Source: Cryptosporangium arvum DSM 44712
GTDB lineage: Bacteria > Actinomycetota > Actinomycetes > Mycobacteriales > Cryptosporangiaceae
Assembly: GCF_000585375.1 (NCBI RefSeq)
Contig: NZ_KK073874.1
Location: forward strand, 434,001-498,000
Direction of reading: 5' to 3'
Length of the DNA stretch: 64,000 nucleotides
Part shown: piece by piece, positions 42,775 to 61,913 of the stretch
How the letters are laid out: each line of letters opens with the position of its first letter
Position numbering within the stretch: position 1 is the stretch's first letter
Notes under the pieces: model-generated
Databases searched by the model: none
What the model saw: the letters and a program-made list of their open reading frames with translations, nothing else
What the model was told of the DNA's origin: nothing
Made by a program: the position numbers and the translations under genes

Positions 42775-43523
42775 TTCACCATCCTTACTGTCGGAGCGGG
42801 TCCGGTAAGAACTTCCAGGCCCGTGCGGACGCCCTGCAACAGGCCGCCGCCCGAGGAGTGACCCACCCGCAGCAGGGCCTCGACGGCCGAGTCGAGCCGT
42901 TCGAGCGGGTCGGTGAGCACGGCGGCGAGCTCCGGGATGCACTCGCCGCGCATGGCGTGCGTGAGTAAGGCGGCCGAGACCGCGGTCGTGGCTCCAGGTC
43001 TGGTCGCCAGTTCGTGCGCCACCATCGAGGCGATGACCTGTCCGGCGTGATGTCCCCCGGCGATCAGGGTGACGAGGGCCCCCGACAAAATGTCGTCGCC
43101 GTACGGGGTTAGGCCCTCGCCGCGGCCCAGGAGTTCGCGTACCGAGGTGCCCGACAGTGCGCTGACATCGGCATCCGTGCGGAGGGCTCGCTGCCTGGCG
43201 TGAAGATCGGAAAGCTGCACCCGTGGGCGGGACGGACGCCACCAGCGGGTGACGGCGACGGCGCGGTCGCCGACCGCGAGCCGGCCGTCGCCGACGTACG
43301 CGGTCGAACCGACCACGGCGGTCGGAACCGGGACGCCAGGACCGAGTCGGATCGCGCACGGAACGCGTACCGCGTCGGCGGCGATGACGCACAACGCGGG
43401 CACGTGCGGATCGCCGGTGGCGAGGTAGAGCGCGCGCGGCAGGGCGGCGGTGACCGTGACGCTCCGGGTCGGTCCGCTCAGAACGGGCGCCAGCGCCATG
43501 GATGCGGCCCCGGGAAGAGTCAT
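42771..43523 (-). CDS. DUF2877 protein (YlbF/AllH-like subunit)
   Basis: A 250-residue DUF2877 protein, the family of E. coli YlbF, the third subunit of the reported oxamate carbamoyltransferase. The family motif is GRGEGLTPYGDDILSGAL (about residues 133-150), with further conserved HHAGQVIASMVAHELATRPG. It is the first gene of the operon DUF2877 - fdrA - DUF1116. ATG 43523 has a purine-rich GAGAGGGGGTG upstream and lies only 51 bases from the divergent pucR start, so a shared regulatory region is likely. A frame continuing to 44513 is the antisense of pucR and is rejected. Confidence 0.83.
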   Translation of the reverse strand: MTLPGAASMALAPVLSGPTRSVTVTAALPRALYLATGDPHVPALCVIAADAVRVPCAIRLGPGVPVPTAVVGSTAYVGDGRLAVGDRAVAVTRWWRPSRPRVQLSDLHARQRALRTDADVSALSGTSVRELLGRGEGLTPYGDDILSGALVTLIAGGHHAGQVIASMVAHELATRPGATTAVSAALLTHAMRGECIPELAAVLTDPLERLDSAVEALLRVGHSSGGGLLQGVRTGLEVLTGPAPTVRMVK

Positions 43524-43561
43524 GTCACCCCCTCTCACCTGGCTGACGGTAAGACCGCGTC

Positions 43562-43574
43562 TACGGTGGTCGGC
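43562..43574 (+). promoter_or_regulatory. Possible leaderless promoter for pucR
   Basis: TACGGT (43562-43567) is seven bases before the pucR ATG. The 51-base gap to the divergent DUF2877 gene must hold both promoters and any PucR operator. Confidence 0.4.
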
Positions 43575-45248
43575 ATGGGAAGAATTGCCAAGGATGGCCG
43601 GGGTCCTTCGGCCAATTTGACGGCATCTCCGGTTGGGTTGCCACTGCGTGACGTGCTCGAGGCGAGCACGTTGACCGGCGCCCGGGTGCTGGCCGGCGAG
43701 GGTGGGCTGGACCGCGTCGTCCAGCGGCTCAACGTGATGGAAGTACCCGACATCCTGCCCTGGGTGAAGCCGCACGAGTTGCTGCTCACCACCGGCTACC
43801 CACTGCAGCACAGCACGATCGCGCTTCTCGACCTGGTCCGTGAACTCGACGAGCGCGGGCTGGCCGCGCTCGCCGTCAAGCTGCACCGCTACCTGGACGA
43901 ACTCCCGGCCGAGGTGCTGGCCGAGGCCGACCGGCGGAACTTCCCGATCATCGAGGTCGCCGAGTCGGTGGGCTTCGACGACATCCTCAACGAGGTGCTC
44001 AGCGCGCTGCTTCACCGGCAGGCGTCGGTGCTGGCCCGGTCGGACGAGGTGCACCGCGCGCTGGTGAGCGTCGTGCTCGAAGGGGGTGGCCTCGACGACC
44101 TCGCGGCCGAACTGACCCGCATCCTCGGCGGCCCGGTGATCGTCACGACGCCCGACGGGCGGGTGAACGCCCGCGCCGGTGACGTCGAGGACCTGCAGAA
44201 GACCGGCTGCTTCGACCCGACCGGCCGCTTCCGCGTCGACGACGAACCGACCGGCGTCCGCCCGCACGACGGCGGTTTCCACACCACCGTGCCGATAGTG
44301 GCCGGACGCATCGACCACGGCCGGATCGTCGCGTTCTCCGACACCCCGCTGGACGCCGCCGACGTCTACTCGCTGGAACGAGCGGCCACGGTGGCCGCGC
44401 TCGCGGTGACCAAGCAGCTGGCCATCGACGCGGTCGAGGGCAAATACCGGGCGGACTTCCTCCGTGACCTGCTCACCGGCCGGGTCGAGGACGTACCGGC
44501 CGCGGTCGCCCACGCGCGCACGCTGGGCTGGGACGTCGAGCGGCCGCTGGTAGCGGTCGTCGCCGAGCTGGACCCGGTGACGACGCCGGTCGGCGCCGCC
44601 CCGGAGCTCCGGCCCGTGCAGGAGCGCTTCGCCACCGCCTGGCAGTCGGTGGTGCGCTGGCGTGATCCCCGCGCGCCGGTCGTGAACTTCAACCAGGAGG
44701 TCGTGGTCCTGCTCGGGCTGCCCTCCGGCGGAGGCGGCGCGGACGCGGTCGAGCGGGCCGTGGGGGAGCTGGTACGCCAGGTCGTCGGCGACGGCGGTGG
44801 AGGCCGACGCTCGTTCTCACTGGGCATCTCCCGGCCGGCGTCCGCGCCCCACGAGTTGCCGCGCGCGTACGAGCAGGCCCGGAAGGCCGTGCGGATCGGT
44901 CGCCGGCTGCACGGTGACGGCGCGCGGGCGAGCTTCGACCGGCTGGGTGTGCACCGGCTGCTGTCGTTGATCCCCGACACGTCGGAGCTGCGCGGGTTCG
45001 TCGAGGAGGTGCTGGGGGAGCTGGCGGCGGACACACCGGAGAACGCGGACCTGCGCCGGACGCTGGCCGTGCTGCTGGAGACCAACTGCACGGTGGCCGA
45101 GGCCGCCCGGCGGTTGCACTTCCACTACAACACCCTGCGGTACCGGATCACGAAGCTGGAGAAGCTGGTCGGCCCGTTCACCGACGACGCCGCTCTGCGC
45201 CTCGACCTGGCGCTGGCCCTGCGTGTCCTCGAGATCCGCGGGCTGTGA
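43575..45248 (+). CDS. pucR: PucR family transcriptional regulator
   Basis: A 557-residue PucR-type regulator. The N-terminal PucR domain (about residues 15-140) contains LLTTGYPLQHSTIALLDLVR and AVKLHRYLDELPAEVLAEAD. A GGDEF-like/CdaR central region follows, and a C-terminal helix-turn-helix near VAEAARRLHFHYNTLRYRIT. In Bacillus, PucR controls purine catabolism; in actinomycetes, relatives control various nitrogen genes. The ATG at 43575 is chosen because it follows a TACGGT box and gives a normal length; upstream frame extension into the divergent gene is rejected. Its position between the FdrA operon and, four genes further on, the permease/molybdenum hydroxylase genes makes it the natural regulator of both. 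Confidence 0.88.
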   Translation: MGRIAKDGRGPSANLTASPVGLPLRDVLEASTLTGARVLAGEGGLDRVVQRLNVMEVPDILPWVKPHELLLTTGYPLQHSTIALLDLVRELDERGLAALAVKLHRYLDELPAEVLAEADRRNFPIIEVAESVGFDDILNEVLSALLHRQASVLARSDEVHRALVSVVLEGGGLDDLAAELTRILGGPVIVTTPDGRVNARAGDVEDLQKTGCFDPTGRFRVDDEPTGVRPHDGGFHTTVPIVAGRIDHGRIVAFSDTPLDAADVYSLERAATVAALAVTKQLAIDAVEGKYRADFLRDLLTGRVEDVPAAVAHARTLGWDVERPLVAVVAELDPVTTPVGAAPELRPVQERFATAWQSVVRWRDPRAPVVNFNQEVVVLLGLPSGGGGADAVERAVGELVRQVVGDGGGGRRSFSLGISRPASAPHELPRAYEQARKAVRIGRRLHGDGARASFDRLGVHRLLSLIPDTSELRGFVEEVLGELAADTPENADLRRTLAVLLETNCTVAEAARRLHFHYNTLRYRITKLEKLVGPFTDDAALRLDLALALRVLEIRGL

Positions 45249-45312: not shown

Positions 45313-45411
45313 GTCCCGGGCTGAATGCATTGCGGCCGTCCCCGCGGAACGGTGAACCTGAGCCCGGCTCGCCGCCGTACGCGCCGAGCAGCTCCAGCGA
45401 GAGGAATCGGG

Positions 45412-45798
45412 ATGGCCTTGAAGGGCTTCACGCAGCGGGTTCTCGTGTCGGCCGCCGTGATCGGCGCGACGATCGCCGGATCGTTCGCGATGGCCGCGCC
45501 GGCCCAGGCGGATTCCGCCAACGGCTGCGCGTACCCCCGGGTGTGCTTCTACAAGACCGGAAACGACTGGTCGACCGACCACCCGACCGCGGCGTACCAG
45601 GACTTCACGTCGGGCTACCAGACGCTCGGGTCGCAGAGCCGGGGGTCGTACGGCGTCTACAACACCCGGAACAACGACGGAGCGCTGCTGCACTTCACCA
45701 ACGGGCAGACGCGATGCCTCGCGCCGAACCGGTTCCTCTGGGCCCAGGACGTCGGCACCGTCGACAAGATCCGGATCATGGACTCGGCCTCCTGCTGA
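45412..45798 (+). CDS. Small secreted cysteine-containing protein (peptidase-inhibitor I36-like)
   Basis: A 128-residue secreted protein. The signal peptide runs MALKGFTQRVLVSAAVIGAT ... AAPAQADS, with cleavage probably after AQA (about residue 33). The mature ~95 residues contain four cysteines: NGCAYPRVCFYKTGNDW, GQTRCLAPN and the C-terminal ASC. The CxxxxxCxYK start and the SRGSYGVYNTRNNDGALLHF core resemble actinobacterial secreted proteins annotated as I36-type inhibitors or of unknown function. ATG 45412 has GAGAGGA upstream; frames that start earlier add arginine-rich leader with no sense. Located next to a membrane HTH/peptidoglycan-binding protein, it may act at the cell surface. Confidence 0.75.
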   Translation: MALKGFTQRVLVSAAVIGATIAGSFAMAAPAQADSANGCAYPRVCFYKTGNDWSTDHPTAAYQDFTSGYQTLGSQSRGSYGVYNTRNNDGALLHFTNGQTRCLAPNRFLWAQDVGTVDKIRIMDSASC

Positions 45799-45882
45799 AG
45801 GGTTGATCCACAGATCCCGCTGTCCTAGGGGCCAGCGTGCCCACATAGGAAAGAATCTCCTTGCCCGAGGCAGGGAGTGCGC

Positions 45883-47085
45883 ATGGGGTCAGTCGCCGAA
45901 ACCGCCGACGTCGCGGTCTACCTCCGTGGCTTGAAGGCGCGGTCGAACCAGAGCTATAAGGCGCTCGCCCGCCAAGTGAAGGTCGGTAGCTCGACGCTGC
46001 ACCGGTACTGCAGCGGGGAGCAGTTCCCGGCGGACTTCCGGGTGGTCCGGTCGTTCGCCGCAGCCTGCGGCGCGAGCACGAGCGAGCTCCAGCTGCTCGA
46101 ACAGCTGTGGTCCGCCGATCCACGAAACCCGGCGATCGCGGCCGGACTTCCCCCCTCTCCGGCCGCGACCGCCGCCTCCGACCCCGGATCCGCCCAGTGG
46201 GCCGGGCCGACCAAGGCCGAGGAAGAAGAGAGGGCCGGGGAAGAAGAGACGGCCAGGGAAGAAGAGACGGCCGGGGAAGAGAAGACGGCCGAAGCGGCAG
46301 CATCGACGGTCACGGGGGCCGCCGATGCTGTCGCGGAGGTTTCCGCGCGGGCCACCCCGGTTCCGCGCCGGTGGTCGGCCCGCCGCGCCTGGTTGGTCGC
46401 GGCGGGTTTCGCTGTGGTGGCGGCCGTCATGGTGGCCGCCACGGTGTTCGTGACGCGCTCCGGCGGGGGAGCGGAGCCGCGCGAGTCCGAGCTGCTGTTC
46501 TCGTCGGCCTGCCAGGGTCCGGTGAGCATGGGGCAGCACGACACCTGCGTCGAGGAGGTGCAGCGCCTCCTCGCGTCGACCGGCGTGAAGATCGGGGTCG
46601 ACGGGGACTTCGGGCCGGAGACGTTGCGCCGGGTCACCGCGTTCCAGGTGCTGGCCGGGTTACCGGTGCGCGGTGTCGTCGACGACGCCACCAAGCGGGC
46701 GCTCTACGCCGGCCAGGTCTCGATGCGCAGCTGGCCACCGGCCCGAGTGGAGCAACGAATCCGGGAGGTGTTTCCCGAGGAGCCGGATCGCGCCGTCGCG
46801 ATCGCGAAGTGCCAGTCGCTGCTCGACCCGTTCTGGGTGCTGCCGAACGTCGACACGAGCCGGAACTGGGGTGTCTTCCAGATCTCCGACCGGCGCCTGC
46901 GTGAGCTCGACGGCACGCCCCGCCGAGCGTTCGACCCCGAGTGGAACATCTGGGCCGCGCGGGAGCTCTGGCGGACCCGCGGTGGGTTCGCCGGGAACTG
47001 GCCGTACTGCGACGAGGCCTACCCGCGCAGCCGGGCGCCTAGCTCTCCACCACCACCGTCGGCTCGTGGTGGACCGGGAAATTGA
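45883..47085 (+). CDS. HTH-TM-peptidoglycan binding protein with lysozyme-like domain lacking the usual Glu
   Basis: A 400-residue single-pass membrane protein. An XRE-like helix-turn-helix is in the cytoplasm (about 10-70; SNQSYKALARQVKVGSSTLH). A Glu/Ala repeat linker follows (112-137), then a transmembrane helix (about 170-191), a PG-binding-1 domain (about 218-275; CVEEVQRLLASTGVKIGVDG) and a C-terminal lysozyme/transglycosylase-like domain. That domain has AIAKCQSLLDP where active enzymes read a CES motif with catalytic glutamate: Gln 311 here. The later NWGVFQISD fits the fold. The protein could sense wall and act on DNA through the HTH. Start ATG 45883 has AGGGAG; GTG 45877 is an alternative. 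The 3' end overlaps OsmC by 47 bases. Confidence 0.8.
   Translation: MGSVAETADVAVYLRGLKARSNQSYKALARQVKVGSSTLHRYCSGEQFPADFRVVRSFAAACGASTSELQLLEQLWSADPRNPAIAAGLPPSPAATAASDPGSAQWAGPTKAEEEERAGEEETAREEETAGEEKTAEAAASTVTGAADAVAEVSARATPVPRRWSARRAWLVAAGFAVVAAVMVAATVFVTRSGGGAEPRESELLFSSACQGPVSMGQHDTCVEEVQRLLASTGVKIGVDGDFGPETLRRVTAFQVLAGLPVRGVVDDATKRALYAGQVSMRSWPPARVEQRIREVFPEEPDRAVAIAKCQSLLDPFWVLPNVDTSRNWGVFQISDRRLRELDGTPRRAFDPEWNIWAARELWRTRGGFAGNWPYCDEAYPRSRAPSSPPPPSARGGPGN
46215..46286 (+). repeat. 18-bp tandem repeat, 4 copies, inside the HTH-TM gene
   Basis: Four in-frame 18-bp units (46215-46232, 46233-46250, 46251-46268, 46269-46286) of the form GGCC(g/a)GGGAAGAAGAGAC encode an acidic linker of six-residue units (GEEETA-like). 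Copies differ by a few bases. The unit number may vary between strains. Confidence 0.85.
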
Positions 47086-47518
47086 CCGAGCTGGCGATGA
47101 AACAGCGGGCGCTCGCGTCGCGGTGCAGGCGGGTGGCCAGCTCGAGCTTGCTCGCGCTGGCGCTGGCCAGCGTCACCTGGGGGCGGAGCGTCACCTCGGT
47201 GAAGCGTCCGCCGCCACCGGGTGTCTGGGTCATCGAACCGGTCGGTGCGTCGGTGTAGTCGACGACGACCACGCCGGACTCGACGCACACGTGCAGGTAC
47301 GACATGAGATGGCAGGCGGAGAGTGCCGCCACGAGCAGTAGTTCGGGGTTCCAGCGGTCGGTTTCACCGCGGAAGGCCGGGTCGGACGATCCGTACAGCG
47401 GCGGGCGTCCGTCCGCCACGATCTCGTGTGATCGGTTGTACGCCCGGTAGGTGCTGGTGCCGGTGCCCTGGTTACCCGTCCAGGTCAGTGCCAGCTCGTA
47501 GTCGTGAACCGCTACCAC
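47039..47518 (-). CDS. OsmC family protein
   Basis: A 159-residue OsmC/Ohr type protein (166 if ATG 47539 is used). The two redox cysteines are in VAALSACHLMSYLH and RDASARCFIASSVNFPV, in the spacing used by organic hydroperoxide reductases; the N-terminal tail includes an Arg/Glu pair. Such proteins detoxify organic peroxides or respond to osmotic stress. GTG 47518 with AGGAG about ten bases upstream is the preferred start; ATG 47539 has no such site. Its start overlaps the upstream EamA transporter gene by 47 bases (47472-47518), and its end overlaps the HTH-TM gene by 47 bases. Confidence 0.85.
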   Translation of the reverse strand: MVAVHDYELALTWTGNQGTGTSTYRAYNRSHEIVADGRPPLYGSSDPAFRGETDRWNPELLLVAALSACHLMSYLHVCVESGVVVVDYTDAPTGSMTQTPGGGGRFTEVTLRPQVTLASASASKLELATRLHRDASARCFIASSVNFPVHHEPTVVVES

Positions 47519-48425
47519 CTGCTGCTCTCTCCTCTGCATTCGATTGCGGCGTCCTGGTGAGTGCCACTCCGGCCAACACGATCGCAGTACCGACGACCGT
47601 CAGCGGAGTGATTTTTTCGCCGAGCACCAGCCAGCCGAGCACCGCGGCGACAACTGGCAGCAGGTACAGCACCACCGACGCGGCCGGTCCGACGTCCGCT
47701 ACCTGGCGAATGTTGAGCACGGTCGCGAGGCCAGTGCAGAACGCGCCGAGCGCGATCGTCGCGACGATGACGTCCGGCCCGAGGTGGACGGCGTCGAGCG
47801 AGTGGGGGCCGGTCACCGGCAGCGCGATCAGCGCGAGCCCGGTACCGGCCACGAGCTGGCCGGCGGCGAGTGCGATCGGCGGCCGGTCGAGGCGCGACAT
47901 GTAACGGTCGATGTAGACGTAACTGGCGCCGTAGCTGGCCGCGGCCATCAGGCCGAGCATCGTCGGCACCACGGGCAGCCCTTCGCCCGGCGGCCAGGTG
48001 CCGATCACCAGCAGCGTCCCGACCAGCCCGGCGAGCAGGCCGCCGAGATAACGCCCGCGGACGGGCCCGAGCCCACCGAGGCAGACGCCGATCGCGAGCG
48101 TCCAGAGCGGCGTCGTCGCGTTCAGCATCCCGCCGACGTGGGAGTCGATGGACCGGACCGCGTACGCGAAGAGCAGGAGCGGGACCACGTTGCCGATCGC
48201 CGCGACCACGGCCAGGTGCAACCACACCCGCGGCTCGGTCGGGAGGCGGATGCCACGCAGCCGGCAGACGGCCAGCAGGAGGGCCGAGCCGAGTGCGAGC
48301 CGGACCACGGTGAGTACGCCCGGCGGGAGGCCGCGCAACGCGATGGCGGCCCAGAGAAAGCTCGACCCCCACAGCACTGCCAGCACTGCCAGCCGGACGA
48401 GCGCAGCGCGTCCGGTAATCCCCAT
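47472..48425 (-). CDS. EamA/DMT family transporter
   Basis: A 317-residue protein with ten predicted helices in two EamA repeats (about residues 10-140 and 150-290): LAVLAVLWGSSFLWAAIALR at the start of the first and GLMAAASYGASYVYIDRYMS in the second. These are drug/metabolite exporters; the substrate is not known. ATG 48425 is used; TAGCGT lies ten bases upstream. The last 47 bases overlap the OsmC reading frame, so the two are linked but not simply arranged. Confidence 0.85.
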   Translation of the reverse strand: MGITGRAALVRLAVLAVLWGSSFLWAAIALRGLPPGVLTVVRLALGSALLLAVCRLRGIRLPTEPRVWLHLAVVAAIGNVVPLLLFAYAVRSIDSHVGGMLNATTPLWTLAIGVCLGGLGPVRGRYLGGLLAGLVGTLLVIGTWPPGEGLPVVPTMLGLMAAASYGASYVYIDRYMSRLDRPPIALAAGQLVAGTGLALIALPVTGPHSLDAVHLGPDVIVATIALGAFCTGLATVLNIRQVADVGPAASVVLYLLPVVAAVLGWLVLGEKITPLTVVGTAIVLAGVALTRTPQSNAEERAAGGSGSRLRAGTDLDG

Positions 48426-48687: not shown

Positions 48688-50163
48688 ATGGCATTCAGGT
48701 GGAGTGTCGTTCACGGAGGCAAAGCACCGCCGCCGGGCGAGGTGGTCCGGCCGGACGAACGTCTGTCCTGGCCGCGGACGATCGGGCTGGGCGCTCAGCA
48801 CGTCGTCGCGATGTTCGGGGCGACGTTCGTCTTCCCGCTGATCATGGGGCTGAACCCGCAGCTCGCGATCATGATGAGCGGTATCGCCACGATCATCTTC
48901 CTGCTGATCGTGAGCGGGAAGGTACCGAGCTACCTGGGAACCTCGGCGTCGTTCGTCGGTGGCGTCGCGGCGATCCGCGCCCAGGGCGGCGACTCGGCCG
49001 AGGTGACCGGCGCGATCCTCGTCGCCGGTGTGGTGCTCGCGCTGGTCGGCGTCCTGATCCACTTCGTCGGTTCCCGGGCGATCTACAGCGTGCTGCCGCC
49101 GGTCGTCACCGGCGCGGTCGTGATGCTCATCGGGTTCAACCTGGCGCCGGTCGTGGCCGGGACGTACTGGCCGCAGGACCAGTGGATCGCGCTGATCACG
49201 ATGCTGTTCGTGATCGTCGTCGCGGTCGGCGTGCGGGGCTTCCTCGGCCGCATCGCGATCTTCCTCGCGCTGCTGTTCGGCTACGCGCTGTCCTGGGTCT
49301 TCGACCGGATCTTCGGCCAGATCACGTCCTACGACGCGGCCGCGGCCAAGGAGACGACGCACTGGCGCGTGAACTGGGACGGCGTGCAGTCCGCGGACTG
49401 GATCGGCTTCCCGCCGCACACCTCGGGTGACGTCGTCGGCTGGCACACCCCGACGTTCTCGATCACCGCGATCCTGCTCGTCCTGCCGGCCGTCATCGCG
49501 CTGATCGCGGAGAACGCGGGGCACGTCAAGGCCGTCGCCGAGATGACCGGTGACGACCTCGACCCGGTGATGGGCCGCGCGATCGCCGGTGACGGTGTCG
49601 GAACGGTTCTCGCGTCCGCGGTCGGTGGCTCGCCCACCACCACCTACGCGGAGAACATCGGCGTCATGGCCGCCACCCGCGTGTACTCGACCGCCGCCTA
49701 CTACGTGGCCGCGATCGTCGCGATCCTGTTCGGGTTCTCGCCCAAGTTCGGTGCGGTCGTCTCGGCGACGCCGGGTGGTGTGCTCGGCGGCATCACGGTC
49801 GTGCTCTACGGCATGATCGGCCTGCTCGGCGCGAAGATCTGGAAGGAGAACCGGGTCGACTTCGCCAATCCGATCAACCTGGTGCCGGCCGCGGCGGGCA
49901 TCATCATCGGTATCGGCGGCGTCAGCCTGGTGTTCACCGACGACTTCTCGCTCTCGGGCATCGCGCTCGGCACGATCGTGACCGTGGCGGGCTTCCACCT
50001 CGCGAAGGCCATCGCTCCGCCGCACCTGAAGGAGCTCTGGCTCGCCGAGCAGCGGCCGTCGCGCACCCCGGACGACGAGGGCGCCACCGAGACCGCGGCC
50101 GGGAAGGACGCCGGCGGCGCGGTGCTGGTCGTCGACGAGCCCGGCGCGTACAAGGAGCCGTAG
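48688..50163 (+). CDS. NCS2 family uracil/xanthine permease
   Basis: A 491-residue nucleobase:cation symporter of the NCS2 type, with about 12-14 transmembrane helices. Signatures: LGAQHVVAMFGATFVFPLIM at the first helices, ENAGHVKAVAEMTGDD, and GGSPTTTYAENIGVMAATRV with the conserved Ser/Thr-rich half-helix and glutamate used in base binding. The substrate could be uracil, xanthine or uric acid. ATG 48688 has GAAAAGGGG seven bases upstream; a longer frame from 48148 is antisense to the neighbour. An intrinsic-looking hairpin follows. Its place just before the molybdenum hydroxylase genes suggests it brings in their substrate. Confidence 0.92.
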   Translation: MAFRWSVVHGGKAPPPGEVVRPDERLSWPRTIGLGAQHVVAMFGATFVFPLIMGLNPQLAIMMSGIATIIFLLIVSGKVPSYLGTSASFVGGVAAIRAQGGDSAEVTGAILVAGVVLALVGVLIHFVGSRAIYSVLPPVVTGAVVMLIGFNLAPVVAGTYWPQDQWIALITMLFVIVVAVGVRGFLGRIAIFLALLFGYALSWVFDRIFGQITSYDAAAAKETTHWRVNWDGVQSADWIGFPPHTSGDVVGWHTPTFSITAILLVLPAVIALIAENAGHVKAVAEMTGDDLDPVMGRAIAGDGVGTVLASAVGGSPTTTYAENIGVMAATRVYSTAAYYVAAIVAILFGFSPKFGAVVSATPGGVLGGITVVLYGMIGLLGAKIWKENRVDFANPINLVPAAAGIIIGIGGVSLVFTDDFSLSGIALGTIVTVAGFHLAKAIAPPHLKELWLAEQRPSRTPDDEGATETAAGKDAGGAVLVVDEPGAYKEP

Positions 50164-50172
50164 AAACACCGA

Positions 50173-50205
50173 TCTCCCGGCGGTCGCGCACCGGCCGCCG
50201 GGAGA
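50173..50205 (+). terminator. Hairpin between the permease and the molybdenum hydroxylase genes
   Basis: A perfect 11-bp stem (50173-50183 with 50195-50205, 11-base loop) follows the permease stop by nine bases and is followed by CTTAT. It may end or attenuate transcription before the downstream genes, 23 bases from the next start. Confidence 0.6.
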
Positions 50206-50227
50206 CTTATCGAGGGACTATCGCGGT

Positions 50228-51112
50228 ATGAAACCATCGGCGTTCGAGTACCACCGTCCCGAGACGCTCGACGAAGCCCTCGGCGTCCTGGCCGAGCTGG
50301 GGGCGGACGGAAAGGTGCTGGCCGGCGGCCAGAGTCTGGTTCCGATGCTCAACATGCGGCTGGCGGCGCCGCACCACCTGGTGGACATCAACCGCCTCAC
50401 CGACCTCGCCCGGATCGACGTGACGACCGACGCGGTCACGGTCGGAGCGATCGCCCGGCACGCCGACGTCGAGCGGGACCCCGAGGCCGAACGCGCCTTG
50501 CCGCTGCTCCGTCAGGCGCTGACCCACGTGGCGCACCCGACCATCCGCAACCGCGGCACGACGGTCGGCAGCATCGTCCACGCCGACCCGGCCGGCGAGA
50601 TGCCGTCGGTGCTCGCGCTGCTCGGCGGTTCGGTGCAGCTCGCTTCGGCGTCCGGGAACCGGGTGGTTCCGGTCGACGATTTCTTCCTCGCGCCGCTCGA
50701 GTCGGCCACGCAGCCGGGTGAGCTCGCGACGAGCGTGACGTTCCCGATCCCGGCCCGCCACACCGGCAGCGCCTGGCTGGAGGTCTCGCGCCGGCACGGT
50801 GATTACGCGGTGTGCGGCCTGGGCGCGCTGGTGACCCTCGACGAGGACCTGCGGATCGCGTCGGCCCGCGGCACCTACGTGTCGATGGGGCCGACGCCGG
50901 TGACGGTCGACTTCACCGAACTTGTCGTAGGCCGTTCCTACGATGCCGCTGACTGGTCCGCCGCCGGGAAGTACGTGAGCTCGGTCGTCGAACCCGAGGA
51001 AGACATCCACGCCACGGCCGAGTACCGGCGTCACCTCGCCGGCGTGCTCACCGGCCGGGCGTTGAAAGCCGCCGCCGCGCACGCGGTGGCCAGAACGGAG
51101 GTAGCCGCATGA
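50228..51112 (+). CDS. Xanthine dehydrogenase/CO dehydrogenase family FAD subunit
   Basis: A 294-residue flavin subunit (CoxM/XdhB type) of a molybdenum hydroxylase. The FAD-binding signatures are AGGQSLVPMLNMRLAAP (about 35-51) and HPTIRNRGTTVGSIVHAD (about 102-120). It passes electrons from the 2Fe-2S subunit to an acceptor. The gene starts at ATG 50228; the stop codon region overlaps the next start by four bases (ATGA, 51109-51112). It leads the operon of three hydroxylase subunits, in the order M-S-L. Confidence 0.92.
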   Translation: MKPSAFEYHRPETLDEALGVLAELGADGKVLAGGQSLVPMLNMRLAAPHHLVDINRLTDLARIDVTTDAVTVGAIARHADVERDPEAERALPLLRQALTHVAHPTIRNRGTTVGSIVHADPAGEMPSVLALLGGSVQLASASGNRVVPVDDFFLAPLESATQPGELATSVTFPIPARHTGSAWLEVSRRHGDYAVCGLGALVTLDEDLRIASARGTYVSMGPTPVTVDFTELVVGRSYDAADWSAAGKYVSSVVEPEEDIHATAEYRRHLAGVLTGRALKAAAAHAVARTEVAA

Positions 51113-51591
51113 CGGAGCACGACGTCACGTTCACGGTGAACGGGGTGCCGCGCACCGCCTCCGTGCCCGCTCGTCGGTTGCTCGCCGACACCCTCCGCCA
51201 CGACCTCGGCCTCACCGGCACCCACCTCGGGTGCGAGCACGGCGTCTGCGGCTCCTGCACGGTGCTCGTCGACGGGCGTCCGATGCGCTCCTGTCTGCTG
51301 TTCGCGGTGAGCGTCGACGGCGCCGAGATCACCACGGTCGAGGGCTGCCGCACCCCCGAGGGCGGCCTCGGCCCGGTGCAGCAGGCGTTCGTCGACTGCC
51401 ACGGCCTGCAGTGCGGGTTCTGCACCCCGGGCTTCGTCACGACGATCACGGCCTACCTCGAAGAGAACCCCGACCCCACCGAGGACGAGGCGCGGGAAGC
51501 GATCGGCGGCAACCTCTGCCGGTGCACGGGCTACCAGAACATCGTGAAATCGGTGCTCCGGGCGGCCGAGCTGAAGAAGGAGACCGCCTGA
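51109..51591 (+). CDS. 2Fe-2S subunit of molybdenum hydroxylase
   Basis: A 160-residue iron-sulfur subunit (CoxS/XdhC-type small subunit). The plant-ferredoxin-like N-terminal domain has GCEHGVCGSCTVLVDG, and the C-terminal helical domain has QCGFCTPGFVTT and NLCRCTGYQN, giving both [2Fe-2S] clusters. All eight cysteines appear present. ATG 51109 overlaps the FAD subunit, and the TGA overlaps the large subunit ATG by one base, so the three are strictly coupled. Confidence 0.94.
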   Translation: MTEHDVTFTVNGVPRTASVPARRLLADTLRHDLGLTGTHLGCEHGVCGSCTVLVDGRPMRSCLLFAVSVDGAEITTVEGCRTPEGGLGPVQQAFVDCHGLQCGFCTPGFVTTITAYLEENPDPTEDEAREAIGGNLCRCTGYQNIVKSVLRAAELKKETA

Positions 51592-53996
51592 TGGTCACCC
51601 GTGCCTTCGGCGTCCCGATGACCCGCCGGGAAGACCCCCGGCTGGTGTCCGGCAACGGCCGCTACCTCGACGACCTGGGTGAGAACGCGCTCGCGGTGGC
51701 GTTCGTCCGCTCACCGCACGCCCACGCCCGCATCCTCGACGTCGACGTCACCGAGGCGCTCGAAGTCGAGGGCCTGATCGCGATCTACACCTACGAAGAC
51801 CTCGCCGAAGACCCCAACCCGCGGGTGTCCGAGCCGCTCCCGCTGCTGATCCCGCACCCCGCCCTGCACGCGCCCCGGGTGAACACGCCGCTGGCCGAGG
51901 GTGTCGCCAGGCACGTCGGCGAGGCCGTCGTCATGGTCGTGGCCACCGACCGGTACGTCGCCGAGGACGCGTGCGAGCGCATCGTCGTGGAGTACGACGT
52001 GCTGCCCCCGGTCGTCGGGATCCCGGCCGCGATCGAGGCGTCCCACCGCGTGCACGCGGACGTCGCCGACAACGTCTCGGCCCACCTCGTGCAGGAGGTC
52101 GGGGACGCCCCGGCGGCGATCGCGTCGGCTCCGCACACCCTGAGCCTCGACCTCGACATCGAGCGCTCGGCGTCGATGCCGATGGAGGGCAAGGGCGTCT
52201 ACGCGCGCTGGGACGCCCACGACCGGTCCCTGCTGGTGTACACGTCGACGCAGGCCTCGACGTCGGTGCGGTTCGCGCTGGCCGCGAAGCTCGACCTGCC
52301 GGTCGACCGCGTCGAGGTGATCGCGCCCGACGTCGGCGGCGGCTTCGGCGTGAAGATCGTGCACCCCTGGCCGGAAGAGGTCCTGATCCCCTGGGCGGCG
52401 ATCAAGCTCGGCCGCGAGGTGAAGTGGGTCGAGGATCGGCGTGAGCACTTCATCAGCTCCACGCACGAACGGGGCCAACTGCAGAAAGTCACCGTCGGTT
52501 TCGACGACGAAGGCCACGTCCTCGGCCTGGACGTCGAGTTCTGGCACGACAACGGTGCCTACACGCCGTACGGAATCATCGTTCCGATCGTCACGTCGAC
52601 GCAGCTGCTCGGCCCGTACAAGCCGGGCGCGTACCGGGTCGAGTTCCGGTCGATGTACACGAACACGGTCACCGTGACGCCGTACCGCGGCGCCGGGCGT
52701 CCGCAGGGTGTGTTCGCGATGGAACGCACGATGGACGCGATCGCCGACGCGCTGGGGCTCGACCGGGCGATCGTCCGGGAACGCAACTTCATCCAGCCCG
52801 AAGACATGCCGTACGACCACCACCTGACGTTCCAGGACGGCCGGCCGCTGATCTACGACTCGGGCGACTACCCGACGTCGATGGAGAAGATCAAGGCGCT
52901 CGTCGGCTGGGACGAGTTCGAGGCGATCCGGGAAGCGGCCCGCGCCGAGGGGCGGCGGGTCGGCATCGGGCTGGCCTGTTACGTCGAGGGCACCGGGCCC
53001 GGTCCGTACGAGGGTGCGTTCGTGCGGGTCGAGACCACCGGCAAGGTCGTCGTCGCGACCGGCCTCACCACCCAGGGGCAGGGGCACGAGACCGTCTTCG
53101 CGCAGATCGCCGCCGAGGAGCTCGGCGTGCCGATCGACGACGTCTCGGTCACCACCGGCGACACCAGGCGCTTCAAGTACGCGGTCGGCACATTCGCGTC
53201 CCGCGCCGCGGTGATGAGCGGCAACGCGGTGGCGCTGACGGCCCGGAAAGTGCGGGCCAAGGCGCTCCGCATCGCCGGGGAGGCGCTCGAGGCCGACCCG
53301 AAGGACCTGGAGATCGTCGACGGGGTCGTGCGGGTGCGGGGAGTCCCGGGTGACGGCATTCCGCTGCGTACCGTCGCCGTCCTCTCGAACCCGCTGCGGT
53401 ACGCGTTCGACGAGGAGGCCAAGCGGGCCACCCAGTTCGCCGGTACCTCCGACATGAGCAAACCGCCGATCGACGAGGACGACGAGCCGGGGCTGGAGGC
53501 CACCGACTACTACTCGCCGATCCGGTCGACGTTCGCCAGCGGTATGCACGCGGCGGTCGTGGAGACCGATCCGGAGACCGCCGAGATCAAGATCCTGCGG
53601 TACTGCGTCGTGCACGATTGCGGCACGCTCATCAACCCCCGGATCGTCGAGGGCCAGATCCACGGCGGGGTGGCGCAGGGCGTCGGGGGCGCGCTCTACG
53701 AGCGGATCGTCTACGACGAGAACGGTCAGCCGCTCAACGCGTCGTACATGGACTTCTTGATTCCGTACGCGTCCGAGGTGCCGAAGGTCGAGACCGACCA
53801 CCTCGAGACACCCTCACCGCTCAACCCGCTCGGGGTGAAGGGCGCCGGCGAGGCCGGTGTCATCCCCTCCGCGGCGCTGTTCGCATCGGCGATCTCGGAC
53901 GCGGAGGGCTTCTTCGTGAACCGGATGCCGATCTCGCCCTCGGAACTCTGGGCGCTCCGCGAGCAGCACGCACTTGCGTCGGAAGGAACCAAATAG
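51591..53996 (+). CDS. Molybdopterin-binding large subunit of a xanthine dehydrogenase-family hydroxylase
   Basis: An 801-residue catalytic subunit that holds the molybdenum cofactor. It has the N-terminal ED-rich domain (REDPRLVSGNGRYLDDL), a central region with GGGFGVKIVHPWPEEVLIPW, and the active-site loop PYRGAGRPQGVFAMERTMD. PYRGAGR matches the form II/xanthine-type loop (AYRGAGR) rather than the AYxCSFR of true form I CO dehydrogenases, so it is probably a purine or other N-heterocycle hydroxylase. The last motif is the GVKGAGEAGVIPSAALFASA segment with the essential Glu. It starts at ATG 51591, overlapping the 2Fe-2S subunit stop. No XdhC-type maturation protein is seen in the window. 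Confidence 0.9.
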   Translation: MVTRAFGVPMTRREDPRLVSGNGRYLDDLGENALAVAFVRSPHAHARILDVDVTEALEVEGLIAIYTYEDLAEDPNPRVSEPLPLLIPHPALHAPRVNTPLAEGVARHVGEAVVMVVATDRYVAEDACERIVVEYDVLPPVVGIPAAIEASHRVHADVADNVSAHLVQEVGDAPAAIASAPHTLSLDLDIERSASMPMEGKGVYARWDAHDRSLLVYTSTQASTSVRFALAAKLDLPVDRVEVIAPDVGGGFGVKIVHPWPEEVLIPWAAIKLGREVKWVEDRREHFISSTHERGQLQKVTVGFDDEGHVLGLDVEFWHDNGAYTPYGIIVPIVTSTQLLGPYKPGAYRVEFRSMYTNTVTVTPYRGAGRPQGVFAMERTMDAIADALGLDRAIVRERNFIQPEDMPYDHHLTFQDGRPLIYDSGDYPTSMEKIKALVGWDEFEAIREAARAEGRRVGIGLACYVEGTGPGPYEGAFVRVETTGKVVVATGLTTQGQGHETVFAQIAAEELGVPIDDVSVTTGDTRRFKYAVGTFASRAAVMSGNAVALTARKVRAKALRIAGEALEADPKDLEIVDGVVRVRGVPGDGIPLRTVAVLSNPLRYAFDEEAKRATQFAGTSDMSKPPIDEDDEPGLEATDYYSPIRSTFASGMHAAVVETDPETAEIKILRYCVVHDCGTLINPRIVEGQIHGGVAQGVGGALYERIVYDENGQPLNASYMDFLIPYASEVPKVETDHLETPSPLNPLGVKGAGEAGVIPSAALFASAISDAEGFFVNRMPISPSELWALREQHALASEGTK

Positions 53997-54689
53997 ATGA
54001 AGGTCAACGGCAAGGCCACGCTGAACGCCCCCGTCGAGCGGGTGTACGCGGCGCTGAACGACCCGGCGGTGCTGGTCCGGACGATTCCCGGCTGCCAGCA
54101 ACTCGAGCAGGTCGGCGACGACGCGTACCGGATGACCGTGACCGCGGGGGTGGCGTCGATCAAGGGCTCGTACGTCGGTGACGTGCGGCTGACCGACCAG
54201 CAGGAGCCGTCGTCGTTCGTGCTGCGGGCGAAGGGGGCCGGGGCGCCGGGCACGGTCTCGGCCGACGTCCTCGTGACGCTGGAGCACGGCGCCGAGGGCA
54301 CCACGCTGCTCTCGTACGCCGCGGACGCGGTGGTCGGCGGGGCGGTCGGGGGAGTGGGGCAGCGGGTGCTGTCCGGGGTCGCGAAGAAGACCGCGGGCGA
54401 GTTCTTCGCCGCGGTCGATTCGCTGCTGAACGCTCCGGCCGAGGTCCTCGCGGCCGCGCCGGCGTCGAGCGCGGCCACCGAGGCACCGGCGAAGGGCGCG
54501 CTGGTGGGTGGCGCGGCGGTGGCTCCGGCCGCTGGTGAACCGCGGGTGTTCACCGCCCCGGCGAAGGCGCCCGGCGGGGGCGGCGCCGATCTGCTCGCGG
54601 GTGGGTTCCTGCCGGGCGCGATCTTCGGCGCGGGTATCGCGCTGCTCGGCGTCGTCGTCGGCGGGCTGATCGGCCGCCGCCGCTCCTGA
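53997..54689 (+). CDS. CoxG-like SRPBCC protein with C-terminal membrane anchor
   Basis: A 230-residue protein of the carbon monoxide dehydrogenase subunit G type. Residues about 1-145 are an SRPBCC/START-like fold (MKVNGKATLNAPVERVYAAL). A linker rich in Ala/Pro follows (about 146-195), then a last hydrophobic helix with a basic tail (GAIFGAGIALLGVVVGGLIG). CoxG anchors the CO dehydrogenase in some bacteria; here it may tether the hydroxylase to the membrane. ATG 53997 is immediately after the large subunit stop. The final residues and stop are part of a 20-bp tandem repeat. Confidence 0.87.
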   Translation: MKVNGKATLNAPVERVYAALNDPAVLVRTIPGCQQLEQVGDDAYRMTVTAGVASIKGSYVGDVRLTDQQEPSSFVLRAKGAGAPGTVSADVLVTLEHGAEGTTLLSYAADAVVGGAVGGVGQRVLSGVAKKTAGEFFAAVDSLLNAPAEVLAAAPASSAATEAPAKGALVGGAAVAPAAGEPRVFTAPAKAPGGGGADLLAGGFLPGAIFGAGIALLGVVVGGLIGRRRS

Positions 54690-54770
54690 CCGGCCGCGGC
54701 CGTCCCTGATCGGCTGCCGCCGCTCCTGGTCGGCTTCGGCCGCTCCTGATCGGGCGCGGCCGCTCCTGAC
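54666..54770 (+). repeat. 20-bp tandem repeat array spanning the coxG-like stop codon
   Basis: Five 20-bp units, CTGAtCGGccGcgGCCGcTC-like (54666-54685, 54686-54705, 54706-54725, 54726-54745, 54746-54765), and a partial sixth run from inside the end of the CoxG-like gene into the gap before the amidohydrolase. The stop codon of the gene (54687-54689) lies at the start of unit 2. Confidence 0.85.
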
Positions 54771-54829
54771 CGACGGTCCGGGTGTGGTGATCGAGCGGTC
54801 GCCACGCCCGGCGGCCCGGAGGAGGCATC

Positions 54830-56053
54830 GTGGAGCTGCTCGTCACCTACGCGCGTCTGCGCGACGGGCGCGTCGTGGACCTGGCGGTCGAGGGCGCCCG
54901 CCTGCGCGTCCTGCCCCGCGGCACGACCCCGACCGTCCCGCCGCGGGTGGTCCGGGCGGACGGGCGGCTGGTCACCGAGTCGGCGGTGGACAACCACTTG
55001 CACCTGGACAAGGTGCACACGCTCGACCGGGTCGGCGACTCGGCGCTCTCCGCCTACACCGACGACGCGATGGCCGGCGCGATGACGTCGATCGAGCTGG
55101 CCAGCGCCGTGAAGGCCGGCTACCGCAGTGCCGACGCGCTGCCGCACGTCCGGCGCGCGCTCACCGACGCCGTCCGGCACGGCACCCTGCACGTCCAGGC
55201 GTTCGTGGACGTCGACACCGCGGCCGGCCTGGAAGGGTTCCGCGCCGTCGTCGAGGCCCGGCGTGAGTTCGCCGGTGTGCTCGACGTCAGAATCGTGGCT
55301 TTTCCGCAGGACGGGATCGTGCGTGACCCGGGCGCGGCCGAGCTCTGCGAGGAGGCGATCCGGCTGGGCGCCGACGTGGTCGGCGGCATCCCCTGGATCG
55401 AGCACACCGACGTCGACGCCCGCGCGCACGTCGAGTGGGCGTGCGCCCTCGCTGCTCGCACCGGCAAGCGCGTCGCGATGCTCACCGACGACGCCGGCGA
55501 CCCCACCCTGCGCACCACCGAGATGCTGGCGGCCGCGATGCTCGAGCACGGCCTGGTCGGCCGGGGGGTGGCCTGTCACGCGCGTGCGCTCGCGCTCTAC
55601 CCGCAGCCGTCCCTGCTCCGGTTGGCCGGGCTGGCGAAGAAGGCCGGGCTCGGGTTCGTCAGCGACCCGCAGACCGGCCCGCTGCACCTGCCGGTGGCAC
55701 TCTTCCGCGACCTGGAAGTCCCGGTGGCGCTCGGCCAGGACGACATCGAGGACGCCTATTACCCGTTCGGCCGCGCCAACCTCTGGGAGGTCGCGTTCCT
55801 GGCCGCTCACCTGCTCGATTTCCGCACCGCCGCCGCCCAGCAGGCCCTGCTCGACCTGGTCACCACCGACGCCGCCCGGGTGTTCGGGCTCGCGCACCAT
55901 CACCTCGCCGACGGGGCCCCGGCGAACTTCGTCGTGCACGACGCGGAGCGGGTGGTCGACGTGCTGCGTCGTCACGCGGCACCGCGCTGGGTGGTTTCGC
56001 GCGGCCGAGTGGTCGCCGAGACGACGATCGTGACTGATATCGTTACCCGGTAA
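54830..56053 (+). CDS. Cytosine deaminase-like amidohydrolase with altered metal site
   Basis: A 407-residue amidohydrolase-superfamily protein. The HxH motif is in VDNHLHLDKVHTLDR (His 56, His 58), and the late catalytic aspartate is in ALGQDDIEDAYYPFG (Asp 304/305). His 250 (ACHARALALY) is present too. But the region that is HCDE in cytosine deaminase reads LTDD (residues 218-221) in VAMLTDDAGDPT: the metal-binding His is Leu and the catalytic Glu is Asp. It may hydrolyse a heterocyclic ring with altered metal use, or be a non-catalytic relative. Start GTG 54830 has GGAGGAGG upstream. It follows the coxG-like gene after the repeat array, so it likely acts on the hydroxylase product. Confidence 0.83.
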   Translation: MELLVTYARLRDGRVVDLAVEGARLRVLPRGTTPTVPPRVVRADGRLVTESAVDNHLHLDKVHTLDRVGDSALSAYTDDAMAGAMTSIELASAVKAGYRSADALPHVRRALTDAVRHGTLHVQAFVDVDTAAGLEGFRAVVEARREFAGVLDVRIVAFPQDGIVRDPGAAELCEEAIRLGADVVGGIPWIEHTDVDARAHVEWACALAARTGKRVAMLTDDAGDPTLRTTEMLAAAMLEHGLVGRGVACHARALALYPQPSLLRLAGLAKKAGLGFVSDPQTGPLHLPVALFRDLEVPVALGQDDIEDAYYPFGRANLWEVAFLAAHLLDFRTAAAQQALLDLVTTDAARVFGLAHHHLADGAPANFVVHDAERVVDVLRRHAAPRWVVSRGRVVAETTIVTDIVTR

Positions 56054-61822: not shown

Positions 61823-61913
61823 CGACCTGCCGCCTTAGCAGAACTTGACGACGAACCTGGCGGATCTTGCCCGTTGAATTCGGGTGAAGAGCTCCAGTCA
61901 GGGGAGGCGGCGC

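Follow-up and report, generated by a model that had tools for sequence, protein, structure and literature searches.

A conserved actinobacterial locus predicted to degrade uracil oxidatively via barbiturate

Background

An oxidative route of pyrimidine degradation, in which uracil/thymine dehydrogenase, barbiturase and ureidomalonase act in turn, is described for Rhodococcus (PMC3758960, PMC3961730). Its last two enzymes yield malonate and urea, the uracil-oxidizing activity has been described since the 1950s (PMC3758960), and pyrimidines serve R. erythropolis JCM3132 as a source of carbon (PMC3961730). This report concerns a 64,000-nucleotide stretch of the Cryptosporangium arvum DSM 44712 genome (the window; C1:434001-498000 of a single-contig 9.2-Mb actinomycete genome), which encodes an NCS2 permease, a molybdenum hydroxylase and the three subunits of an FdrA-type transcarbamylase. 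These genes form the central part of a longer conserved locus reaching past the window. The locus includes a barbiturase of the same class as that of the Rhodococcus pathway, and its predicted function is the oxidation of uracil via barbiturate.

Two further described systems resemble parts of this locus. In Escherichia coli, AllF, AllG and AllH constitute the oxamic transcarbamylase of allantoin fermentation, encoded in an operon with carbamate kinase (allFGH-allK, PMC11326118). The same three subunit families are found here, with a carbamate kinase gene in the region, but the actinobacterial set is coupled to barbiturase and a molybdenum hydroxylase, and its predicted substrate is ureidomalonate instead of oxalurate. 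The hydroxylase carries the loop motif PYRGAGR, which has been described from Saccharomonospora viridis and Streptosporangium roseum as a mark of atypical type II (form II) CoxL proteins of unproven function; the same source states that no functional type II enzyme had been reported as of 2014 (PMC4053681), and form II activity is called unresolved in an account of 2026 (PMC13240472). Carbon monoxide (CO) oxidation by a form II enzyme of Aeropyrum pernix is cited as experimentally confirmed (PMC10773090); this example, although from a different organism, speaks against generalizing about form II. The present locus provides the PYRGAGR subgroup with a pathway and a proposed substrate other than CO.

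Proposed pathway

From protein families, gene order, co-occurrence and residue comparison, the locus is predicted, with a probability of roughly three in four, to degrade pyrimidines oxidatively, converting uracil via barbiturate. The NCS2 permease would import uracil, and the Mo/FAD/Fe-S enzyme would hydroxylate it at C6 to barbiturate, passing electrons via CoxG to menaquinone. Barbiturase would open the ring to give ureidomalonate, from which AllFGH would release malonamate and carbamoyl phosphate by phosphorolysis, and the putative carbamate kinase would convert carbamoyl phosphate to ATP, CO2 and NH3. A CN-hydrolase or amidase, encoded beside the hydroxylase genes in many relatives, may turn malonamate into malonate, which a type III CoA-transferase together with an AccDA-like protein may carry to acetyl-CoA. 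An earlier note on this DNA, made from the letters and their open reading frames (ORFs), had outlined import of a base, hydroxylation, ring opening and use of the carbamoyl group. That outline survives; the substrate is probably a pyrimidine, and the ring is most likely opened by barbiturase and not by the window's amidohydrolase. The genes concerned in the window, called from codon-position GC content and Pfam/NCBIfam matches, are:

39806..41257, minus strand: AllG (DUF1116), putative transcarbamylase subunit (PF06545, 319.5 bits; start approximate)
41269..42768, minus strand: AllF (FdrA), putative transcarbamylase subunit (PF00549, 108 bits; PRK06091, 399 bits against a cut-off of 433; start approximate)
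42771..43649, minus strand: AllH (DUF2877), putative transcarbamylase subunit (PF11392, 70 bits, in ORF 42771-44513; start approximate)
43650..45248, plus strand: PucR-type regulator (PF07905, PF17853, PF13556; ORF extends to 43200, start approximate)
48688..50163, plus strand: NCS2 permease, UraA/RutG-like (uracil-type; PF00860, 247 bits)
50228..51112, plus strand: FAD subunit of the Mo-hydroxylase (PF00941, PF03450)
51109..51591, plus strand: [2Fe-2S] subunit of the Mo-hydroxylase (PF01799, PF00111)
51591..53996, plus strand: Mo-pterin large subunit with PYRGAGR loop, proposed uracil (C6) hydroxylase (NF040766, 1499 bits; PDB 1t3q, 472 bits; alignment)
53997..54689, plus strand: CoxG-like protein with C-terminal hydrophobic helix (PF06240, 82 bits; hydropathy)
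54830..56053, plus strand: CodA-like amidohydrolase, probably accessory (PRK05985, 215 bits against a cut-off of 408)
61884..63944, plus strand: HyuA subunit of a hydantoinase/oxoprolinase-type pair (PF01968, 302 bits; HyuB next, beyond the window)

The permease, the three hydroxylase subunits, CoxG and the amidohydrolase thus all belong to the families named in the earlier note.

Taken further, the locus would specify a complete energy-conserving pathway, with a quinone-linked PYRGAGR molybdenum enzyme and with AllFGH as a new catabolic transcarbamylase that cleaves an acyl urea different from oxalurate, yielding carbamoyl phosphate and ATP; this pathway would replace the reductive one in much of the Actinomycetes, and Rhodococcus would represent a hydrolytic variant. 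We lean towards this wider interpretation with less confidence than towards the oxidative route as such. It predicts a new way of earning ATP from uracil, and the genes seem to belong to a pathway that is widespread among actinobacteria. Where the earlier note had recognized no defined pathway in this combination of genes, the type of pathway is in fact known biochemically, but neither a gene assignment for the uracil-oxidizing step nor an AllFGH/carbamate kinase branch of pyrimidine degradation was found in the openly licensed literature searched; published work elsewhere may hold part of this. The locus offers candidate genes for steps known for decades as enzyme activities only.

Hydroxylase, CoxG and permease

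The large subunit far exceeds the cut-off of NF040766 (CODH_aero_grp5; 1499 against 950 bits) and falls short of every NCBIfam xanthine dehydrogenase model (394, 376, 256, 251 and 207 bits against cut-offs of 780, 916, 784, 850 and 830, respectively), so that it is not of the xanthine type named in the earlier note ("xanthine/form II type"). The PYRGAGR loop reported in the earlier note is present and invariant in 12 of 12 aligned sequences, those of the window protein and 11 orthologues; it occupies the place of the form I loop AYXCSFR, and the copper-binding cysteine is consequently absent. Among solved structures, quinoline 2-oxidoreductase (PDB 1t3q) is the closest to the large subunit (472 bits), followed by 6-hydroxypseudooxynicotine dehydrogenase (424 bits) and CoxL (406 bits), with xanthine dehydrogenases at no more than 144 bits. 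Quinoline 2-oxidoreductase hydroxylates the position beside a ring nitrogen; its substrate differs from the one proposed here, and its gene neighbourhood presumably differs too. By these likenesses the enzyme appears to be a hydroxylase of azaheterocycles rather than of purines, its substrate is probably a pyrimidine, and linkage makes it a candidate for the oxidation of uracil to barbiturate.

CoxG matches PF06240 (82 bits) and ends in a hydrophobic helix at about residues 203-226 (hydropathy 2.28 around 207-226), in agreement with the membrane anchor that the earlier note had assigned to it. In work cited in PMC13240472, CoxG is proposed to bind menaquinone and to carry electrons from CO dehydrogenase into the quinone pool. 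Here, by analogy, CoxG would let the hydroxylase deliver its electrons to the respiratory chain.

The permease matches PF00860 well above the Pfam cut-off (247 bits) and has UraA as its nearest solved relative (193 bits, versus 58 bits for the uric acid/xanthine permease). It keeps both substrate glutamates of UraA, E241 and E290 (IAEN.GH and TTYAENIGVM aligned to IAEHVGH and TTYGENIGVM), which presumably take part in uracil binding, and so it may import uracil. Its scores against the individual NCBIfam permease models are all below cut-off (RutG, 360 against 759 bits; UraA, 257 against 477 bits; PbuX, 155 bits). The earlier note had held that a firm grouping of the hydroxylase with enzymes of non-purine substrates would tell against its proposal; for a purine substrate the scores of hydroxylase and permease go some way in this direction.

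The PYRGAGR type II CoxL proteins thus gain a concrete candidate function, and the present family is likely to be the answer to the question of what they do. The name of NF040766, "aerobic carbon-monoxide dehydrogenase large subunit", covers PYRGAGR proteins; it is likely to be misleading and to inflate counts of CO oxidizers, among which automatic annotation may include pyrimidine degraders.

Barbiturase, transcarbamylase and carbamate kinase

Beyond the window the locus continues with HyuB and, at 513-520 kb of the contig, a type III CoA-transferase, an AccDA-like carboxyltransferase, a carbamate kinase and a PF09663 protein, the last two adjoining. The PF09663 gene (C1:518959-520092) lies directly behind that of the kinase and 31 kb downstream of the Mo subunit gene. 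Among solved structures its product scores 675 bits with PDB 5hwe ("Barbiturase"), an enzyme that we take to originate from Rhodococcus, and 321 bits with the next, cyanuric acid hydrolase. It also passes the NCBIfam cyanuric acid hydrolase model (477 against a cut-off of 360 bits); degradation of cyanuric acid was nevertheless rejected as its role on the twofold higher score with barbiturase. The genome thus possesses a barbiturase-class gene linked to the locus, strongly assigned to its family, and the predicted reaction is the opening of barbiturate. Four genomes of the class without the cluster have PF09663 proteins of another type, 37-39% identical to that of C. arvum (L118:9855, L119:9900, L117:6119 and 12963, L116:9452).

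The three transcarbamylase families are adjacent in the window. With the E. coli enzyme established as oxamic transcarbamylase, the use of the carbamoyl group postulated in the earlier note can be made specific, as phosphorolysis to carbamoyl phosphate; ureidomalonate is an N-acylurea like oxalurate, and its cleavage to malonamate and carbamoyl phosphate would be the parallel reaction. The carbamate kinase exceeds the cut-off of PRK12352 (288 against 266 bits) and is below that of TIGR00746 (326 against 358 bits). In 54 of the 62 genomes of the class examined, a carbamate kinase gene lies within 400 bp of the barbiturase gene and in the same orientation; the survey also took in one Rhodococcus locus, which is without the kinase. 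The eight misses are G210 and G018, both without AllG, and G011, G245, G135, G225, G204 and G213. The barbiturase loci of G018 and G011 sit at contig ends, carbamate kinase is encoded elsewhere in the genomes of G245, G135, G225, G011 and G210, and none was found in G018, whose genome is incomplete.

The ring-opening enzyme is most likely the barbiturase outside the window and not the amidohydrolase within it. The amidohydrolase has no Pfam match at E 0.001 (the best is at E 0.21), its NCBIfam matches (PRK05985, cytosine deaminases) are all below cut-off, and its nearest solved relatives are cytosine deaminases (138 bits). Where CodA has VHCDE, the window protein and those of L071 and L133 have MLTDD or MLVDD, so that the conserved His and Glu of CodA, presumably a metal ligand and the catalytic residue, respectively, are missing in the window amidohydrolase. 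An ordinary cytosine deaminase was accordingly rejected, and a CodA-like gene is found in at least 5 of 56 mapped loci; the protein is apparently accessory and unlikely to open the ring in the core pathway. A purine route with this amidohydrolase as ring-opener was discarded on the likenesses of permease and hydroxylase, the missing residues and this low count. One query each for CN-hydrolase and amidase found neither in the window. In an alphaproteobacterial metagenome-assembled genome (MAG) contig (L223:7638-12692), two CodA-like genes, a barbiturase gene (63% identical) and an amidase gene stand in a row, with further amidohydrolase genes and a creatininase-family gene upstream; both of these CodA-like proteins keep the His and the Glu.

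Co-occurrence and gene order across the Actinomycetes

Conserved co-occurrence, proposed in the earlier note as a check, was examined in 296 genomes sampled evenly from the class, C. arvum included, with PF06545 as marker of AllG, NF040766 over cut-off as marker of the Mo subunit, and PF09663 for the barbiturase/cyanuric acid hydrolase family. The result is strongly positive. AllG is encoded in 72 genomes, the Mo subunit in 62 and PF09663 in 67; AllG and Mo coincide in 59, Mo and PF09663 in 61, AllG and PF09663 in 61, and all three in 59 (Fisher p <1e-43 for each pair). Counted by genus (n = 115), Mo and PF09663 are both present in 30, Mo only in 1, PF09663 only in 6 and neither in 78 (p 1e-20). 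Sixty of the 61 PF09663 proteins in Mo genomes were mapped, and each is either the C. arvum protein or 72-88% identical to it. Six PF09663 genomes have no Mo match over cut-off: four of them carry the type 37-39% identical to the C. arvum protein, versus 72-88% elsewhere; in G123 the Mo gene is broken across two contigs, its two pieces scoring 881 and 532 bits; and G024 encodes AllG and a barbiturase that shares 83% identity with that of C. arvum, with no Mo match above 524 bits.

The genes are also linked. AllG and Mo share a contig in 51 of 58 genomes and are divergent in all 51, within 15 kb in 44; the other seven pairs, which all belong to a single genus, are separated by 91-115 kb in six cases and by 1.7 Mb in one (G055, whose only AllG is of a lower-scoring type at 202 bits, was left out). 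For Mo and barbiturase, 38 of 60 genomes have both genes on one contig; the strand is the same in all 38, and the two lie within 45 kb of each other in 37 (G027, with a 25-residue fragment, was left out of the barbiturase distance and neighbour counts). The linkage of hydroxylase, AllG and barbiturase is far above chance. From 64 loci, eight without a cluster-type Mo gene were dropped, and the 56 mapped loci, among which those ending at contig ends or at 20-kb limits were kept, give lower bounds: FAD and Fe-S subunits in 56, CoxG in at least 50, NCS2 in 49, AllF in 47, PucR in 46, AllG in 45, AllH in 41, a CN-hydrolase or amidase in 33, HyuA in 24 and XdhC in 14.

Among the matches listed in a contig scan, of which 80 loci were kept, orthologues 65-76% identical occur in Embleya, Terrabacter, Phycicoccus, Intrasporangium, Planotetraspora, Nonomuraea, Microbispora, Geodermatophilus, Modestobacter, Nocardioides, Catenulispora, Aeromicrobium and Rhodococcus. 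Nocardioides albidus (L149) and N. daejeonensis (L152) have the core set contiguous in about 20 kb, with AllG-AllF-AllH divergent from PucR-NCS2-FAD-FeS-Mo-CoxG-amidase-HyuA-HyuB-carbamate kinase-barbiturase, and the MAG contig L154 encodes barbiturase-NCS2-carbamate kinase-AllH-AllF-AllG-FAD-FeS-Mo on one strand. In the marine alphaproteobacterium L155, the Mo subunit is 53% identical and HyuAB is linked to the Mo genes.

Genomes with the cluster are poor in the marker of the reductive pathway. Dihydropyrimidinase/D-hydantoinase (TIGR02033 over cut-off) is encoded in 83 of the 296 genomes, but in only 3 of the 62 with Mo (17.4 expected, p 4e-7), and in 2 of 63 genomes with a cluster-type barbiturase. 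Phylogeny explains part of this depletion. RutA was tried as marker of a rival pathway and proved uninformative, being over cut-off in only 4 of the 296 genomes and in none of the 62 with Mo.

Relation to the Rhodococcus route

Rhodococcus sp. 1168 encodes the same Mo-hydroxylase, permease, CoxG and HyuAB within 20 kb of a barbiturase 85% identical to that of C. arvum, in the order CoA-transferase, carboxyltransferase, barbiturase, amidase, PucR, amidase, XdhC, PucR, NCS2, FAD, FeS, Mo, CoxG, HyuA, HyuB on one strand. Its genome has no AllG match and, against the carbamate kinase model, only weak kinase matches (at most 34.5 bits); for AllF and AllH the search covered the 36 kb fetched. The phosphorolysis model predicts such a joint absence of AllG and carbamate kinase where amidases flank barbiturase, and the gene set is one fitting a hydrolytic route via ureidomalonase. 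Most cluster genomes have AllFGH and carbamate kinase where the Rhodococcus route hydrolyses ureidomalonate to urea and malonate (PMC3758960). The described enzymes are those of R. erythropolis, whereas the Mo genes considered here are known from Rhodococcus sp. 1168 and from genomes of the genus.

Among 37 genomes of the Rhodococcus-type genus, Mo is present in 10 and barbiturase in 8, both in 7, Mo only in 3 and barbiturase only in 1 (p 9e-5); in each of the 7 shared genomes the two genes lie on one contig, in one orientation and at a distance of 10.9-11.1 kb. Of 23 genomes searched in this follow-up, 20 have PF09663 and 15 have AllG.

Contrary evidence and alternative explanations

Several observations weigh against the proposed pathway. 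The sampled genomes are not independent. The depletion of dihydropyrimidinase depends on the cut-off, three more Mo genomes scoring 342-350 bits against 393; counted from 340 bits it is 6 of 62 versus 18.2 expected (p 4e-5), and inside families the exclusion is weak (f19, p 0.02; f29, p 0.28; f31, p 0.8; f11, none). Two genomes with AllG (G204 and G213) have no carbamate kinase that could be found, and the Catenulispora MAG G308 has carbamate kinase and barbiturase without AllG. In C. arvum itself other genes lie between the hydroxylase and the distant barbiturase, and the locus is thus not one operon in this genome. HyuAB is linked to the locus yet has no step in the proposed pathway. The permease is just under the cut-off of the NCS2 superfamily model TIGR00801 (282 against 292 bits), and AllF is below that of the NCBIfam FdrA model. 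No sequence feature separates ureidomalonate from oxalurate as substrate of AllFGH, nor can uracil and thymine be told apart by sequence as first substrate. One Mo genome among the 62, G270, is without PF09663, and three Rhodococcus-type genomes have Mo without barbiturase: G325 (coordinates equal to those of G270), G322 and G324. In these three either another ring-opening enzyme exists, perhaps HyuAB, or the pathway is incomplete. In G270 (L097, L220, L221), HyuAB and an amidase are encoded beside the Mo genes.

The same genomes bear on the best of the alternatives, which is nonetheless unlikely: that a different ring is degraded through a barbiturase-type step or a HyuAB opener, for example thymine via 5-methylbarbiturate or a compound of the hydantoin type, and that uracil is not the main substrate. 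The linkage of HyuA to the Mo genes in at least 24 of 56 mapped loci and in the alphaproteobacterial L155 agrees with it, as do the Mo genomes devoid of barbiturase. It accords poorly with the presence of PF09663 in 61 of the 62 Mo genomes of the class, with the close identity of the 60 mapped proteins, and with the alignment of the permease to UraA at both substrate glutamates.

Much less probable is the existence of two separate neighbouring systems, AllFGH acting on oxalurate from allantoin and the hydroxylase on a purine. The proven activity of the E. coli enzyme (PMC11326118), the four genes between the two halves in the window and the naming of PucR for purine catabolism would favour it, but elsewhere the halves keep to one contig and a divergent arrangement at short distance, and neither hydroxylase nor permease is purine-like. 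Furthermore, AllG is 37-51% identical to the window protein in six mapped loci without a Mo gene (the mapping took in 6 of the 13 genomes that have AllG but no Mo match over cut-off), versus 59-93% in mapped cluster loci. Of these six, L099, L100 and L102 encode AllF and AllG (AllG 49-51% identical) with a nearby carbamate kinase, match neither Mo-hydroxylase nor barbiturase over the stretch fetched, and perhaps represent the classical oxalurate route; the AllG-like proteins of L101, L103 and L104 are divergent (37-38% identical), and the stretches fetched there gave no match to FdrA.

That the enzyme is an aerobic CO dehydrogenase with CoxG and incidental neighbours, as the name and score of NF040766 and the adjacent CoxG might suggest, is the least probable of all, since the copper cysteine is absent and the linkage to permease, barbiturase and AllFGH would go unexplained, the functional type being unreported in the 2014 source (PMC4053681) and unresolved in the 2026 one (PMC13240472); the very small probability left to it was set because one paper (PMC10773090) cites a CO-oxidizing form II enzyme in an archaeon.

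Gene arrangement within the window

AllG, AllF and AllH are divergent from PucR, which is followed by four ORFs and then by the permease-hydroxylase-CoxG-amidohydrolase run. The tight overlaps described in the earlier note are borne out: the FAD and [2Fe-2S] subunit genes overlap by 4 bp, the [2Fe-2S] and Mo subunit genes by 1 bp (TGATG), and CoxG abuts the Mo stop codon without a gap. The absence of an XdhC-type gene also holds, one XdhC protein as query giving no match in the window at E 1e-4. PucR probably regulates the locus; two intergenic stretches were aligned as DNA, and nothing was seen in them. The four genes that, as the earlier note had observed, separate the two halves are evidently a local insertion, because 32 of the 43 mapped loci with both PucR and NCS2 have less than 600 bp between these two genes:

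45325..48425, strand not stated: four ORFs between PucR and permease, local insertion, outside the pathway, namely
45325-45798: ORF of 157 aa without Pfam match
45877-47085: ORF with HTH_31 and PG_binding
47039-47539: ORF with OsmC
47472-48425: ORF with EamA

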